Positions 17,694 through 25,215 of a stretch of DNA of 64,000 nucleotides are shown here, in pieces. The stretch lies in NCBI GenBank assembly GCA_020404895.1, contig JADBWK010000032.1, forward strand, positions 1 through 64,000, written 5' to 3'. The position numbers and the translations under genes were made by a program. Each line of letters starts with the position of its first letter. Within the stretch, counting starts at the first letter, position 1. Source of the DNA: Pseudanabaena sp. M085S1SP2A07QC. GTDB taxonomy: Bacteria; Cyanobacteriota; Cyanobacteriia; Pseudanabaenales; Pseudanabaenaceae. The notes under the pieces were generated by a model. It had not been told where the DNA came from and did no database searches. It was given only the letters and a program-made list of their open reading frames with translations.

Positions 17694-17841
17694 AGGACTT
17701 ATGTAAATCAACCAAGAACTCAAGTTCTTGGTTAAAAGCTCAAGTCCACTAAAGTGGACTACAGAATACTGTTAATTAACTCGTTTCAACGGGTTTGAGC
17801 TTTTAGCACGCACTTGAGTGCAGGGATACTGCGTAAGTCCT
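17694..17841. mobile_element. MITE-like element, AGGACTTA ends, modular hairpins
   Basis: Ends AGGACTTATG... and ...GCGTAAGTCCT match the termini of the element at 55221-55313. The interior holds the hairpins ACCAAGAACTCAAGTTCTTGGT, AGTCCACTAAAGTGGACT, and CGTTTCAACGGG, plus GCACTTGAGTGC. These modules, joined by GAGCTTTTAG-like linkers, recur at 21709-21759 and 28333-28396. No target duplication is clear. Confidence 0.7.
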
Positions 17842-19237: not shown

Positions 19238-19362
19238 GATTACATAAAATGCAGCTATCTGTGATGACGATCACCCATAAATAGGCGATCGCATACAACC
19301 AAAGTTTTATAAGAGTGATACGATATTTTTATGATTTATGCTATAAAGCAACCAAAATCAAT

Positions 19363-20523
19363 ATGAAATCATCTTTGCACGTTGATATTGTCTCAGCCAC
19401 AATACTAATTCTATCGTTCCAAGTTGCACAGGTTGATGCGGCTCCAACCAATAATCAAAGCTTTGAAAAATGGTGTTTGCAGAAGGATTCTCTTCTAGTA
19501 GAAACTAAAAAAACGGTTGATGTAATGCTCAAGAAATCTGGCACGCAAGACTGTAAGCTAGCTGAGATGAAGCTTAACAGCCTATCTACACTTTCGCTCA
19601 ACGGGACTCAAATCATTGATATTAAGCCTCTTGCAGGTTTGACTAAGTTAACGAAACTCTATCTCGGCGACAATAAGATCAGTGATATTAAGCCACTTGC
19701 GGGTTTGACTAAATTGACTTTTCTCGATCTAGGCAACAATCAAATTAGGGACATTAAACCACTTGCAGGTTTGACTAAGTTAACAGAACTCTATCTCTTA
19801 AGAAATAAAATCGCTGACATTAAGCCACTTGCGAGTTTGACTAAGTTGACTTTACTTTCGCTCAACAGCAATAAAATCATTGATATCAAGCCTTTTGTGG
19901 GCTTGACTAATTTGACTCACCTCAATCTTAGTAGCAATCAAATTAGCGACATTAAGCCCCTTGAGAGTTTGACTAATCTAACGGCACTCTTTCTTGGCGA
20001 GAATAAGATTGGTGATATTAAGCCGCTTGAAGGTTTGGCGAACCTAACTTTTCTCTCTCTCAGCAGGAACCAAATCAGTGATATTAAGCCACTTGCGGGT
20101 TTAACTAATTTAATGCTCCTTTATCTCGGTAAAAATCAAATTAGTAATGTTAAGCCACTTGAGGGGTTGACTAAGTTGAGTAACCTAATTCTTGAGGAGA
20201 ATCAAGTCAGCAATGTTAATCCACTTGCAGGTTTGAAGGATCTAACGGAACTCTCACTCAGTGATAATCAAATCACTGATGTTAAGCCACTTGTAGGGTT
20301 GACTATGTTGGATCGACTCTCACTCGGTGGTAATCAAATTAGTGATGTTAAGCCACTTGCGGATTTGACTCATCTAACGGTACTTGTTCTCGACGGTAAT
20401 CAAATCATTGATTTTAAGCCACTTGCGGGTTTGACTAAGTTGACCTACCTCGGTCTCAGTAACAACAAAATTAATGACAACTCCTGCCCAGTCAAACCTG
20501 AATCTGTTTGCACATTCTGGTAG
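19363..20523 (+). CDS. Secreted internalin-like leucine-rich-repeat protein
   Basis: About fourteen consecutive 22-residue repeats of the type LTxLxLxxNxISDIKPLAGLTK occupy about residues 55-375, forming a solenoid for protein binding. The ATG at 19363 (MKSSLHVDIVSATILIL) gives a proper signal peptide ending near VDAAP, so it is preferred to the upstream ATG at 19315. A Cys pair precedes the repeats (WCLQK, DCKLAE) and another closes them (CPVKPESVCTFW), probably as disulfide caps. The repeats are similar at DNA level (66-bp period), so recombination between units is likely. The ligand is unknown. Confidence 0.88.
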   Translation: MKSSLHVDIVSATILILSFQVAQVDAAPTNNQSFEKWCLQKDSLLVETKKTVDVMLKKSGTQDCKLAEMKLNSLSTLSLNGTQIIDIKPLAGLTKLTKLYLGDNKISDIKPLAGLTKLTFLDLGNNQIRDIKPLAGLTKLTELYLLRNKIADIKPLASLTKLTLLSLNSNKIIDIKPFVGLTNLTHLNLSSNQISDIKPLESLTNLTALFLGENKIGDIKPLEGLANLTFLSLSRNQISDIKPLAGLTNLMLLYLGKNQISNVKPLEGLTKLSNLILEENQVSNVNPLAGLKDLTELSLSDNQITDVKPLVGLTMLDRLSLGGNQISDVKPLADLTHLTVLVLDGNQIIDFKPLAGLTKLTYLGLSNNKINDNSCPVKPESVCTFW

Positions 20524-20769: not shown

Positions 20770-21642
20770 TCAGATGTGCTTTTCAGCCGTGACAACTCCA
20801 AAAATGCCATTGGATTCCATTTGCACCTGAAAGTTCTCAAATCCAGCAACTTCTGCCCATTGGCGAATTAGCTCCCAAGAGCGCACCCGCATTACCCAAG
20901 GAAGCCCCGTATGAGCTGGCAAAGTACGAGCAATCATTTCTAGCTGAGGATGCTGCGGCTGAATCGTGAAGATCAGCGTCCCTGACGTATCGAGAATCCG
21001 ATAGAGTTGCTGAAAATGATTTTTAATCAGCGCATCATTTGTCAAAATCTCATGTAGTCCTGAAACAATTACCAAGTTTGGTCTTGGCATTACCCGATCT
21101 AGATCTTCGTCATTGAACGCATCTGCCTGTTCGATCTGAGCAGTAACTCCGAATTGAGTCGCTAACTGGCGAGCCTTAGTGACATTCTCTAATTTGTAAT
21201 CACGCAGGGTTGCCGCGATCGCATTATTTCCCAATTCTTGTTCAAATTCTTGCAAAACTTCTAGATCGTAGCGACCACCACCGCAAGCAACATCCAACAA
21301 ATGACAGGGAATATTTTGCCGTTGATAGGACTGCAATACTCTGCGGAGTGTGGTTTTCATCAACTGCGATCGCGATCTAATGCCGCGCCATCCCTGAGAG
21401 TTAAGATAGAACCAATCAATGAGAGTTCCGAGAGGCGTAATCCCACTGGGCTGATTTTTATAAACATACTCTAGCATCACACCTGAATCAAAACCATACT
21501 GAAATCCGATCTGAATGCCTCGTGATAGTTTGCCAATGGTTTTGAGAGAGAGATTCATCAATCCGTAGTACCAAGCCTTAGGATTCCAGATTGGTAGAGG
21601 AAGCAAAAGTTGTTCGTAGGTGGGAAATGTTTTTTGTAGCAT
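20770..21642 (-). CDS. Class I SAM-dependent methyltransferase (YnbC C-terminal-like)
   Basis: The SAM-binding motif LLDVACGGGRYDLEVL lies near residues 115-130, followed by LRDYKLENVTKARQLA and a motif II region PNLVIVSGLHEILTN. The protein resembles the methyltransferase half (PF12147-type) that in E. coli YnbC is fused behind an alpha/beta hydrolase. Here the hydrolase part is absent. It is last in a minus-strand cluster with PlsC, CdsA-like and CDP-alcohol phosphotransferase genes, so a lipid or lipid-headgroup substrate is the natural guess (inference). It is separated from plsC by 116 bp containing a repeat. Confidence 0.75.
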   Translation of the reverse strand: MLQKTFPTYEQLLLPLPIWNPKAWYYGLMNLSLKTIGKLSRGIQIGFQYGFDSGVMLEYVYKNQPSGITPLGTLIDWFYLNSQGWRGIRSRSQLMKTTLRRVLQSYQRQNIPCHLLDVACGGGRYDLEVLQEFEQELGNNAIAATLRDYKLENVTKARQLATQFGVTAQIEQADAFNDEDLDRVMPRPNLVIVSGLHEILTNDALIKNHFQQLYRILDTSGTLIFTIQPQHPQLEMIARTLPAHTGLPWVMRVRSWELIRQWAEVAGFENFQVQMESNGIFGVVTAEKHI

Positions 21643-21708
21643 GATAACCTCGGTGGGTAAGGAAAAAGGATAAAGGATAAAGGATAAAGTAGATAAAATC
21701 TATTTTTT

Positions 21709-21759
21709 AGTCCACTGAAGTGGACTTGAGCTTTTAGCCAAGAACTTGAGTTCTTGGTT
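21709..21759. repeat. Modular double hairpin at end of plsC
   Basis: AGTCCACTGAAGTGGACT, a GAGCTTTTAG linker, and AAGAACTTGAGTTCTT, in inverted orientation to the same modules at 17712-17760. Its end abuts the plsC stop codon. A triple AGGATAA repeat lies just beyond (about 21668-21690). Confidence 0.8.
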
Positions 21760-22400
21760 TATCTTTCTGCTGACAGAGCCTGTACGCGGTCTGTTAGTTG
21801 CTGAAGAAAGATTTGTTTTTGTCCATTCCAATACATGGCTTCACCAATGAAGATTGAGCATAGCAATGGGACGATGAGGAAGTCGCCTTTCGGGAGCGCT
21901 TTGCCTAGACCATGCAGGAAAATGGGAACGATTGGTACATGAGGATGTTGCTTGGCTAGATGGGCGATGCCACTTCTAAACTCACCGATGCTTTCAGGAG
22001 TGCCTCTAGTGCCTTCAGGATAGAGAATGAGAATCTGATTTTCGGCGATCGCATCGGCACAGTTTTTAAAGAAATTGCGATGGTTGCTGCAATTATCTCG
22101 ACAGTTACCCGATTCCGTTGAAACGGGAATAATATGTAGAATGTGACGTGCAAACCATGCTAAGCAAGGATTTTGTTGGAGAAAATACTCCTCATTGGCG
22201 ACGGGGCGAATATGCTGCACCTTTGATAAGGGGAATAGCGACAAGAGAACAAGGGTATCTAGATGGCTATTGTGATTAGCGACTAGAATTGCGGGGCCAG
22301 TTGTGGGCAATCTCTCGCGATGTTGGATGCGCAATCCTAGCAGAACTAAGACGATGATTTTTGTGGTTAGAAAGAAGATAACGCTAATAATTTGTTTCAT
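21759..22400 (-). CDS. PlsC-type 1-acylglycerol-3-phosphate acyltransferase
   Basis: Acyltransferase motif I NHNSHLD (H43, D48) and motif III YPEGTRG (E129) define the PlsC family, which acylates lysophosphatidate or related lipids at the membrane. An N-terminal hydrophobic helix (about residues 4-23) should anchor it. The start overlaps the end of the CdsA-like gene by 4 bp (ATGA), indicating translational coupling. It is likely dedicated to the same lipid route as its neighbours and not the housekeeping PlsC (inference from context). Confidence 0.88.
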   Translation of the reverse strand: MKQIISVIFFLTTKIIVLVLLGLRIQHRERLPTTGPAILVANHNSHLDTLVLLSLFPLSKVQHIRPVANEEYFLQQNPCLAWFARHILHIIPVSTESGNCRDNCSNHRNFFKNCADAIAENQILILYPEGTRGTPESIGEFRSGIAHLAKQHPHVPIVPIFLHGLGKALPKGDFLIVPLLCSIFIGEAMYWNGQKQIFLQQLTDRVQALSAER

Positions 22401-23350
22401 AGCAATTGTCCTTGGAAGTAGAAATAAACTGTGAAGTGAAAAAATAGAGGTGCGGTGTAAGTGAGGCTATCAATGCGATCCAAGATGCCACCATGTCCTG
22501 GGAGCAGATTGCCGCTATCTTTAATGCCCAAATCTCTTTTCAGGGCAGAGATATTCACATCTCCGATAAATCCTGTCAGGCTGAGCAATAGCCCTAGAAA
22601 ACCAGCATGGACTAAATCAAAGGGAGTCAACCAAGGCGCTAAGGCGATCGCTAATCCTGTGGTTGTCAAAACTCCTCCTAGCAATCCTTCAACGGTTTTA
22701 TTGGGACTGACTTTGGGAATGATTTTATGGCGACCAAATAGCTTGCCGAAGATATATTGAGAAATATCGTTGATTTCAGTCAGCAGCAATAGATAGACTA
22801 ATAAGCCTGTGCCTCCTGCGATCGGATTGCCACTTAGGGGAAGCATGATTAAATATGAGAGATGGCTAATCGTATATACATTCAACATCAGCCCCCAATG
22901 GATTGTGCCGATCGCATTTAAAAAGCCTTCAGTTTCACCAGTGAGCAACATCCGCATCGGCAGGAGCAAGAACATATAGATGGGAATAAAAATTAAAAAC
23001 ATTCCATACCAGCCAATGTAAATCCAAAAATATTGGAGGACTATGGCAAGATATGCCCAGAGTAAAACGCGGCGATCGCTAAAGCGAGTGGGAATTACAG
23101 AGAGATATTCTCGCAGAGCGATAAAACTGAGAAACATAAAGAAGATGATAGATGCAGGATGTTTCAGCAATATGGCGAGACTGAAAATAGTCACCATCAC
23201 CCACCAAGATTTGATGCGGGCATTTAGTTCGCTATAGTCTGTATCCCAATGGCTTAAGGCTAAACCGAGGACGGTAAGGGTAGCGATCGTAAGTAGTCCA
23301 AAAATTCCCGCGAGGGTATATAACACTGGTGTAGCTAAATTTATTTCCAT
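22397..23350 (-). CDS. Phosphatidate cytidylyltransferase (CdsA/YnbB-like)
   Basis: The C-terminus carries the CdsA signature: S-A-L-KRDLGIKDSG then LPGHGGILDRIDS (about residues 270-300). This enzyme makes CDP-diacylglycerol from phosphatidate and CTP in the inner membrane, and about eight hydrophobic helices are visible. It overlaps the upstream CDP-alcohol phosphatidyltransferase gene by 10 bp and the downstream plsC by 4 bp. In E. coli the same pairing is ynbA-ynbB, and YnbB is a CdsA paralogue. This is therefore probably a second, specialised CdsA. Confidence 0.9.
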   Translation of the reverse strand: MEINLATPVLYTLAGIFGLLTIATLTVLGLALSHWDTDYSELNARIKSWWVMVTIFSLAILLKHPASIIFFMFLSFIALREYLSVIPTRFSDRRVLLWAYLAIVLQYFWIYIGWYGMFLIFIPIYMFLLLPMRMLLTGETEGFLNAIGTIHWGLMLNVYTISHLSYLIMLPLSGNPIAGGTGLLVYLLLLTEINDISQYIFGKLFGRHKIIPKVSPNKTVEGLLGGVLTTTGLAIALAPWLTPFDLVHAGFLGLLLSLTGFIGDVNISALKRDLGIKDSGNLLPGHGGILDRIDSLTYTAPLFFHFTVYFYFQGQLL

Positions 23351-23979
23351 GATTCAACCTTCTGTAACATTCCTTGCGTACGATTAATAATTGTCCACAT
23401 TTGTAGAAAAATTACTCCAATTAAAAGGAGTGTGAGCCATTGAGAAGGAGCAACTCCTAAGCCGAGGATCAAGCTAATTAAGCCAAATACAAAGGCGCGA
23501 TCGCTTTTGCCCATGGGGCCCTCGTAATGTCGTATATGGTCAATCTCATAGCCTAAGACCCCGACCATTTCCGAAGCGATCGCTAATATTACAATTCCAA
23601 CAATCAAGGCAGCAGAAACACCTGAAACCAGAGCAAATGGTAGATATAGACAAACATCGGAAATGACATCTCCCATCTCATTGAGAATGCAGCCTAATGC
23701 TGATTTTTGATTATGTTCGCGAGCCAGCATTCCATCGATCGCATTCAGACCCATGCGGACTAATAAGGCGATCGGCAGAGAGCAAAGAACCTGTTGCGTC
23801 GTGGGCAAAAAAGGATGCGCGAGTTGCGTACTTTGAACAAGTGCTAGTCCCGTCACCCCTGACAACAAAATCGCTGCTCCCGTAACTTGGTTAGGAGAAA
23901 TTTGCCATGCTGCCAATTGGGCTACGAATGGGCGGAGCAGATTTTGAAAGGCTGATTTGCATTGGTAGATTGAAATCAT
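23341..23979 (-). CDS. CDP-alcohol phosphatidyltransferase family (YnbA-like)
   Basis: The family motif D-x2-DG-x2-AR-x8-G-x3-D-x3-D appears here as N79-x2-D82-G83-x2-A86-R87-x8-G96-x3-N100-x3-D104, so the first and third Asp are Asn. The 212-residue protein has about six transmembrane helices. The canonical reaction swaps CMP of a CDP-alcohol for another alcohol. With two ligands changed, either metal use differs or the reaction is unusual. YnbA-type proteins may share the change (uncertain recollection). It is the first gene of the lipid operon. Its promoter should lie in the 213-bp spacer to the divergent gene at 24193. Confidence 0.85.
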   Translation of the reverse strand: MISIYQCKSAFQNLLRPFVAQLAAWQISPNQVTGAAILLSGVTGLALVQSTQLAHPFLPTTQQVLCSLPIALLVRMGLNAIDGMLAREHNQKSALGCILNEMGDVISDVCLYLPFALVSGVSAALIVGIVILAIASEMVGVLGYEIDHIRHYEGPMGKSDRAFVFGLISLILGLGVAPSQWLTLLLIGVIFLQMWTIINRTQGMLQKVESWK

Positions 23980-24192: not shown

Positions 24193-25215
24193 ATGTTAGA
24201 TTCGCCAGCAATTCGTCCTGAAGCTCTTGAACAGTGGCTTTCAGAAACAATCCAACAACATTATGTGGCGATGCTGCTTCGGCGAATCGGGATGACGCGG
24301 CGCAGAGCCGATTGTTTTGTTCGACTAGCCCTGTATTTATTTTTAAAAGATTGCCAATCGCGAAAAGTTCTCCCGAAATCACCACTGACGGAGTTATCTT
24401 TTCCACAAGGATGGGTTGAATGTAGCTGTCTCGAAGCCGCAGAAGTATTTTATAGCGACAAAGATCGGGGTGGCGATCGCTCTGCGGGGTTGATGCTTAA
24501 TAAGCTAGTTGATTTGGGGCTAATCCAAAAACAGTTTGACGGCAACTGCACCCAAATCAAAATTCAACCACCACCAGATCTACTTGAAAGTGACGCTCAA
24601 GACTCAAATATATGCTTTGCGATCGATGCTTTTGACCCGCGCAGTGATGCGATTCCGATCGCAAATTTGTTAGCTAGCAACTACAACTGGCTCAATCGCA
24701 ATAACGATGCAGTCACCTATCGCATTGCCAATATTCTTCGCGATTGGGCTAGTCAATATGCAGCAGGCTTACGAGTTCTGCGCCGTAGCGACAATCAAAA
24801 CCCTGTTGGTTTTTATGCTTTCTATCCGACTAAACGGGAATCAGAAATAAAGTTTTTTGAACCTCCTAGTCGCGGACTGCATTTGAGTCAAGTTTCTGAT
24901 ATTGATCCTTTTCAGATGGCTTTGGCAGGAGATGAAGCCTGTCAGTCCATTTTTGTGAGAAGTTGGGTGATTGATAGTGAATATCGACAAGCATCTCAGC
25001 CTAGTCTTTTGCTAGATTCTCAACAAACTCTCCAGAGAATGCAGCAAGATTTCCCGAATCTATGGGATATGTACACTTTAATCATTCACCCCAATTATGC
25101 AGCTTTAGCAGGAGCCTTAGGATTTCAAAAAACGAGTTCCGATCCAAAAATGCCTCTCTATTGGATGTATCAAGCAGTAGATCGCTTTCTCAAGCTTGAT
25201 ATGCAAAAATTATAA
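24193..25215 (+). CDS. Conserved hypothetical protein, possible GNAT-like C-terminus
   Basis: A 340-residue soluble protein. The N-terminal part (about 1-130) is helical and contains RRIGMTRRRADCFVRLALYLFLK and a winged-helix-like segment (LMLNKLVDLGLIQKQF). The C-terminal part (about 190-330) has strands and helices such as VGFYAFYPTKRESEIKFFE and LWDMYTLIIHPNYAALAGALGF, faintly like an acyltransferase fold. The resemblance is weak and I do not assign a function. Two Cys-rich spots are visible (ECSCLEA). It stands alone and is divergent from the lipid operon. Confidence 0.7.
   Translation: MLDSPAIRPEALEQWLSETIQQHYVAMLLRRIGMTRRRADCFVRLALYLFLKDCQSRKVLPKSPLTELSFPQGWVECSCLEAAEVFYSDKDRGGDRSAGLMLNKLVDLGLIQKQFDGNCTQIKIQPPPDLLESDAQDSNICFAIDAFDPRSDAIPIANLLASNYNWLNRNNDAVTYRIANILRDWASQYAAGLRVLRRSDNQNPVGFYAFYPTKRESEIKFFEPPSRGLHLSQVSDIDPFQMALAGDEACQSIFVRSWVIDSEYRQASQPSLLLDSQQTLQRMQQDFPNLWDMYTLIIHPNYAALAGALGFQKTSSDPKMPLYWMYQAVDRFLKLDMQKL

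Follow-up and report, generated by a model that had tools for sequence, protein, structure and literature searches.

In Pseudomonas aeruginosa, the genes PA2541-PA2536 (arc1A-F) form a cluster in which five of the six products are phospholipid-related while the core machinery is encoded elsewhere, and whose loss lowers survival under attack by the type VI secretion system (T6SS) of Burkholderia thailandensis (PMC8926400); full resistance to Vibrio cholerae and Acinetobacter baylyi lipase effectors likewise depends on arc1A, together with arc3A and aas (PMC12663445, 2025). In Escherichia coli, YnbB makes cytidine diphosphate (CDP)-diacylglycerol (CDP-DAG) in vitro, and its overproduction raises the level of the glycolipid MPIase, though its knockout changes little (PMC6362211, PMC7018664); YnbB is unable to complement the loss of CdsA (PMC6362211). 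E. coli ynbA, ynbB and ynbC were found named together only in a genome announcement, once each, and our literature search found no mention of the methyltransferase family PF12147. In this work, we analyzed a 64,000-nucleotide stretch (hereafter the window) of the cyanobacterium Pseudanabaena sp. M085S1SP2A07QC (contig JADBWK010000032.1, positions 1 to 64,000), which carries an operon of four genes encoding a YnbA-type CDP-alcohol phosphotransferase, a YnbB-type CdsA-like enzyme, a PlsC-like acyltransferase and a PF12147 methyltransferase (hereafter the quartet; Table 1). An earlier note, made from the sequence alone, had described these genes as a cryptic YnbABC-like phospholipid operon; our results indicate that they represent, in compact form, a dedicated phospholipid line that is widespread in bacteria.

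All four proteins exceed the curated Pfam cut-offs (PF01066, 29.5 bits against a cut-off of 22; PF01148, 223.5; PF01553, 75.5; PF12147, 268), and the relationship to the E. coli proteins held with the same gene order: the YnbA-type transferase matches YnbA with 44% identity over 204 aa, the CdsA-like protein matches YnbB over its full length (44.5% over 301 aa) and retains the CdsA signature residues, invariant in YnbB-type proteins, and the methyltransferase matches residues 312-580 of YnbC (40%). For the PlsC-like protein, the top NCBIfam match is an acyl-acyl carrier protein phospholipid O-acyltransferase, with a score under the cut-off. The methyltransferase model displays a class I S-adenosylmethionine-dependent fold (predicted local distance difference test, pLDDT, 94.6), whose best full-length match is 3ocj (Z 23.4), an uncharacterised Bordetella protein from which the substrate cannot be read. 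The four genes lie on the minus strand, the first two overlapping by 10 bp and the second and third by 4 bp, exactly as first annotated, coordinates included; the methyltransferase gene follows after a spacing of 116 bp.

The quartet constitutes a second phospholipid-synthesis line apart from the housekeeping one. The source genome (4.8 Mb, 99.7% complete, with Pseudanabaena as the closest relatives at the operon locus) contains exactly one further PF01148, one further PF01066 and one further PF01553 gene, all on other contigs and corresponding to one CdsA, one PgsA and one PlsC, so that the set is additional, as the earlier note had proposed. The alignment between the CdsA-like protein of the window and the housekeeping CdsA is limited to the C-terminal 137 aa, and the YnbB-type clade is split from housekeeping CdsA by a long, supported branch, in a tree whose long branches call for caution. 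These separate copies, and the separate YnbB clade, rule out that the quartet represents the housekeeping genes.

Co-occurrence in other genomes, on which the earlier note's reading depended, was borne out by a neighbourhood survey, in which 84,980 species genomes were scanned with the methyltransferase alignment. The resulting 80 loci span Cyanobacteriota, Pseudomonadota, Acidobacteriota, Verrucomicrobiota, Planctomycetota, Campylobacterota and Bdellovibrionota-like metagenome-assembled genomes, and partners were counted in the 52 loci whose PF12147 methyltransferase gene is flanked by 4.5 kb or more to either side. A YnbA-like transferase was found in 48 of these and a CdsA-like gene in 47, while 41 harbor both together with PlsC; since the query was the methyltransferase alone, the partner genes were not selected for, with the caveat that a few sequences behind the neighbour profiles stem from the surveyed loci themselves. 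Among the four loci without an adjacent YnbA, three (L085, L090, L108) carry one elsewhere in the genome, the fourth (L080) lying outside that check. Distant bacteria share the set, frequently with the gene order unchanged, so the quartet is not a chance arrangement; no partner is more constant across phyla than the methyltransferase. The sequence types of CdsA-like and PlsC proteins switch jointly in 63 of 65 loci (31 I/I and 32 II/II, the two exceptions being a truncated contig and an LplT-acyltransferase hit), which suggests that both enzymes work as a pair. Partial PF12147 matches with scores of 16-49 in other cyanobacteria (L008, L010-L021, L134-L136), which served as negative control, had no YnbA, YnbB or PlsC gene within 1.5 kb and were rejected as members of the system.

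The earlier note regarded the set as that of E. coli in which an acyltransferase has taken the place of the hydrolase, a view that did not stand: hydrolase and PlsC are both present in 27 of the 52 loci, so PlsC counts among the regular components and is missing from the E. coli set, and it is the hydrolase and YnbD that are lacking in the cyanobacterial branch. Both are absent from the window and from all cyanobacterial loci, while the quartet is complete in every cyanobacterial locus with enough flank; 14 loci hold only the four core genes, all of them cyanobacterial or Micavibrio-like. In the methyltransferase tree, the hydrolase-free cyanobacterial proteins and three Micavibrio-like ones form one clade (Shimodaira-Hasegawa-like approximate likelihood ratio test, 100). 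Apart from the core set, a second, more distant CDP-alcohol phosphotransferase adjoins PlsC and CdsA-like genes in the Lysobacter loci L079, L095, L102, L103 and L106, away from the block of ynbA, hydrolase/methyltransferase and ynbD. A conserved pair of open reading frames occurs in some acidobacterial and Accumulibacter-type ynb loci (L063, L069, L070, L109, L110, L112, L117); its minus-strand reading, of about 221 aa, resembles a secreted protein that has a membrane helix at its C-terminus.

The placement of the set in a cyanobacterium was correct, and its distribution there is patchy. In a 292-genome sample of Cyanobacteriota, the YnbA profile exceeded 280 bits in exactly four Cyanophyceae (the source genome, one congener and two others), the same four with a full-length PF12147 match, and stayed at or below 49 bits in all remaining Cyanophyceae genomes; at genus level, the quartet is present in 17 of 26 genomes. 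In Pseudanabaena sp. ABRG5-3 it directly adjoins a nif cluster on the 125-kb plasmid ABRG53d (L155, NZ_AP017564.1), and Shinella and Burkholderia plasmids carry related sets as well, which makes gain and loss of the quartet via plasmids likely. Another class of Cyanobacteriota, with small genomes and probably Vampirovibrionia, includes members in which the set is arranged in a different gene order, members in which YnbA, YnbB and PlsC occur but the methyltransferase does not, and members with two transferases of the YnbA kind. In L140, L141 and L142, from these small-genome relatives, two CDP-alcohol phosphotransferases, both with the Asn/Asn motif described below, flank PlsC and CdsA-like genes, with an LplT-Aas fusion on one side. 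LplT-Aas-type lysophospholipid-repair genes stand beside twelve loci in three lineages, eight of them in this second class, the others being L058-L060 and L062; the L058 protein scores above the NCBI curated cut-off for this type of enzyme. A replacement of PlsC by an LplT-acyltransferase fusion in L062, suggested at first sight, is not claimed, as the end of that locus falls within the operon.

The catalytic motif of YnbA gave the most surprising result. The canonical CDP-alcohol phosphotransferase motif is D1xxD2G1xxAR...G2xxxD3xxxD4, in which the aspartates coordinate two metal ions and D4 is the proposed base (PMC6506517, PMC8633023). In all 69 YnbA-type sequences compared, Asn occupies D1 and D3, while D2, D4, G1 and G2 are kept and an additional Asp at +4 is invariant (N79, D82, N100, D104 and D108 in the numbering of the window protein). 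The family thus departs from the four-aspartate motif while retaining the PF01066 score and the fold; PgsA of the source genome and of E. coli have the canonical Asp at both positions, and the same Asn residues also occur in the more divergent second transferases. We know of no earlier report of this invariant motif. With two Asn in its metal site, YnbA might be no alcohol transferase at all, and might instead bind or hydrolyze CDP-DAG within a set that repairs phosphatidate or lysophospholipids via PlsC. The phosphatidylserine synthase (PSS) MjPSS, in which a change of any motif aspartate to Ser or Asn reduces or abolishes activity (PMC8633023), lends this some plausibility, as do the LplT-Aas genes near the twelve loci and the Vampirovibrionia loci that lack the methyltransferase. 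Nevertheless, D2, D4, G1, G2 and the acceptor-side arginines are invariant, as expected of a working transferase, and in Pseudomonas it is arc1A itself that gives the phenotype (PMC12663445), and we regard such a repair unit as improbable.

Structural comparison places YnbA close to phosphatidylinositol-phosphate (PIP) synthases. Its AlphaFold2 model (pLDDT 95) has these enzymes as closest solved folds (5d91, Z 19.8, 192 aligned residues, root-mean-square deviation 3.0, 20% identity), against Z 12 for PgsA and Z 11 for PSS, and the profile matches in the PDB agree (E 1e-10 for PIP synthase, 0.028 for PgsA). In Mycobacterium tuberculosis (Mtb) PgsA1, R155 and R195 bind a sulfate that is regarded as a marker of the acceptor phosphate; they correspond to R161 and R200 of the window protein and are present in 69 of 69 YnbA-type sequences, which makes a phosphate-bearing acceptor plausible. 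YnbA could then be a PIP synthase, the methyltransferase making an O-methyl-inositol lipid. Besides the nearest structures, a match to the NCBIfam archaetidylinositol-phosphate synthase (53.7 bits, under its cut-off of 180) would fit this, as would YnbD, a PAP2/dual-specificity phosphatase (DSP) suited to a phosphatidyl-X-phosphate intermediate in other members. Against it, YnbA-type sequences do not conserve K135 and R137, which belong to the inositol-phosphate pocket of the Mtb enzyme, and inositol-1-phosphate synthase (PF07994) was found neither in the source genome nor in E. coli (control panel), making inositol phosphate a less plausible acceptor; we therefore consider a phosphatidylinositol-type product doubtful, with little chance of being correct. 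Methylation of phosphatidylethanolamine towards phosphatidylcholine (PmtA-type) was likewise rejected, because phosphatidylserine decarboxylase (PF02666), found in the E. coli control, is missing from the source genome.

The same structural data bear on whether the quartet is a back-up for phosphatidylglycerol (PG), the extra PlsC, CdsA-like and PgsA-like enzymes providing more PG under stress with the methyltransferase as an incidental neighbour. To our knowledge PG is the only phospholipid of cyanobacteria, which speaks for a back-up, and four arc1 products have been called homologous to PG-synthesis enzymes (PMC8926400). However, YnbA is far from PgsA in both sequence and fold and carries the Asn/Asn motif, the methyltransferase is the partner least often missing, and the failure of E. 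coli YnbB to replace CdsA points the same way, which renders a PG back-up unlikely.

A connection to arc1 appears well supported by three lines of evidence: primer pUC18_PA2541_F (PMC8926400) encodes MISVYQL, the YnbA N-terminus (MISIYQC in the window); the published description of the cluster agrees; and a six-gene order is present in relatives, on Shinella and Burkholderia plasmids (CdsA, PlsC, small protein, PAP2/DSP, hydrolase-methyltransferase, YnbA on the Shinella plasmid). The earlier note rightly left the product unassigned, but the term cryptic does not wholly hold for the set, because Pseudomonas arc1 has a published phenotype; this, and a transferase without two of the four canonical aspartates, go beyond that note.

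On balance, we hold it probable that the quartet is a hydrolase-free and phosphatase-free, four-gene version of ynb/arc1, a dedicated line making a specialized, probably methylated, anionic phospholipid for envelope defence. We infer the order of the steps, the acceptor, the methylation target and a role shared by the cyanobacterial version as follows: the PlsC-like enzyme would make phosphatidate, or re-acylate a lysophospholipid; the YnbB-type enzyme would make CDP-DAG; the YnbA-type transferase would move the phosphatidyl group onto an alcohol, probably a phosphate-bearing one; and the PF12147 enzyme would methylate the product or its headgroup. Most likely, the resulting envelope lipid would help the membrane to withstand phospholipases or rival bacteria. 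Independently of arc1, the LplT-Aas neighbours of the twelve loci speak for such a role as well. The YnbB-type step could alternatively feed an MPIase-like route, in which a GlcNAc-PP-DAG (N-acetylglucosamine-pyrophosphate-diacylglycerol) glycolipid serves membrane-protein insertion. The overproduction result in E. coli accords with it, but YnbA, PlsC and the methyltransferase, which travel with YnbB, would be left unexplained, and no glycosyltransferase lies beside the quartet genes in the loci examined, so that this route seems very improbable.

Several observations weigh against a dedicated defence lipid: no member of the ynb/arc1 family has a known lipid product; the arc1 hydrolase and phosphatase, both of which the phenotype may need, are missing in the window; the two Asn substitutions could signal changed or lost activity, as the MjPSS mutants illustrate (PMC8633023); the phosphorylated acceptor is only suggested, because CDP-alcohol phosphotransferases in general share the anion-binding arginines; the quartet is missing from several Pseudanabaena genomes; and cyanobacteria live under different threats than Pseudomonas.

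Going further, the invariant Asn at D1 and D3 may mark the YnbA family as a subfamily of CDP-alcohol phosphotransferases whose metal site has been rebuilt and whose product, in several phyla, is a methylated phospholipid not described so far; in cyanobacteria this lipid would stand alongside PG as another phosphoglycerolipid and would be induced for phospholipase resistance. This proposal is tentative, and we place it below an even chance. The present analysis joins E. coli ynbABCD, the Pseudomonas arc1 anti-lipase cluster and a minimal four-gene cyanobacterial version, which were not found joined in the literature searched. Having neither hydrolase nor phosphatase, the cyanobacterial version is the least complex of the complete sets and so offers the cleanest way to find the lipid by expression in a laboratory E. 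coli; the invariant Asn/Asn motif provides a ready test of metal-site use in CDP-alcohol phosphotransferases and can serve well as a sequence signature by which to recognize family members.

Table 1. The quartet and adjoining features in the window
Feature	Position	Strand	Basis or remark
YnbA-type CDP-alcohol phosphotransferase, 212 aa, operon gene 1	23341..23979	-	PF01066, YnbA likeness, AlphaFold2 model
Altered catalytic motif N79-x2-D82-G-x2-A-R...G96-x3-N100-x3-D104-x3-D108 (YnbA-type)	23656..23745	-	69-sequence comparison
YnbB-type CDP-diacylglycerol synthase (CdsA-like), 317 aa	22397..23350	-	PF01148, full-length YnbB match
PlsC-like acyltransferase (type I of ynb clusters), 213 aa	21759..22400	-	PF01553; NHNSHLD and YPEGTRG motifs intact
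Intergenic gap PlsC/methyltransferase, 116 bp	21643..21758	-	holds palindrome CCAAGAACTCAAGTTCTTGG at 21738-21757
PF12147 methyltransferase, YnbC C-terminal domain without hydrolase domain, 290 aa	20770..21642	-	PF12147, YnbC likeness
Divergent neighbour, 340 aa, without family match	24193..25215	+	adjoins ynbA

Regarding the surroundings, the palindrome CCAAGAACTCAAGTTCTTGG occurs twice in the window (17713-17731 and 21738-21757; 0.01 expected) and, among Pseudanabaena loci, also lies 3' of plsC in L039, L051 and L055 while being absent from L040, L042, L043, L044 and L056; it looks like a small dispersed repeat. A scan for promoters and terminators gave no counts above chance level. The divergent 340-aa protein has no Pfam or PDB match, and its gene adjoins ynbA in 13 of the 13 loci where it was found, namely in Pseudanabaena (including plasmid ABRG53d), two Mastigocoleus and Oscillatoria CS-180; it is possibly a regulator or a linked gene, its belonging to the system being uncertain. 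On the methyltransferase side, a 402-aa leucine-rich-repeat protein (19315-20523, plus strand) displays many LRR_4 matches. PADLOC gave no anti-phage defence match, and PHROGs no match that would indicate a phage origin.

Compared with known systems, PIP synthases (Mtb PgsA1, RsPIPS) share with YnbA the fold and the two acceptor-side arginines, but at 14-20% identity, with Asp at D1 and D3 where YnbA has Asn, and with the pocket residues that YnbA lacks. LplT-Aas repair, described as a phospholipase defence (PMC12663445 and references therein) and encoded by neighbours of ynb-type loci, flips and re-acylates lysophospholipids without CDP-alcohol chemistry; its genes do not adjoin the operon in the window, and the source genome has no Aas-type acyltransferase. 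The arc1 cluster resembles the quartet in the presence of YnbA and in lying outside the core machinery, but it comprises six genes, including a hydrolase-methyltransferase, a PAP2/DSP phosphatase and a small membrane protein, with CdsA-like and PlsC proteins of type II; its Gac/Rsm control is not expected in cyanobacteria, and its protection against T6SS lipases has been published for P. aeruginosa only (PMC12663445). E. coli ynbABCD (b1408-b1411) shares with the window the A-B-C order and the Asn/Asn motif; it has an alpha/beta hydrolase fused to the methyltransferase, followed by ynbD, and no PlsC; in the window the reverse applies, PlsC being present and the hydrolase and YnbD absent. Judged by its gene content, without the fused hydrolase and without YnbD, the quartet is a variant of the ynb/arc1 cluster rather than arc1 proper.

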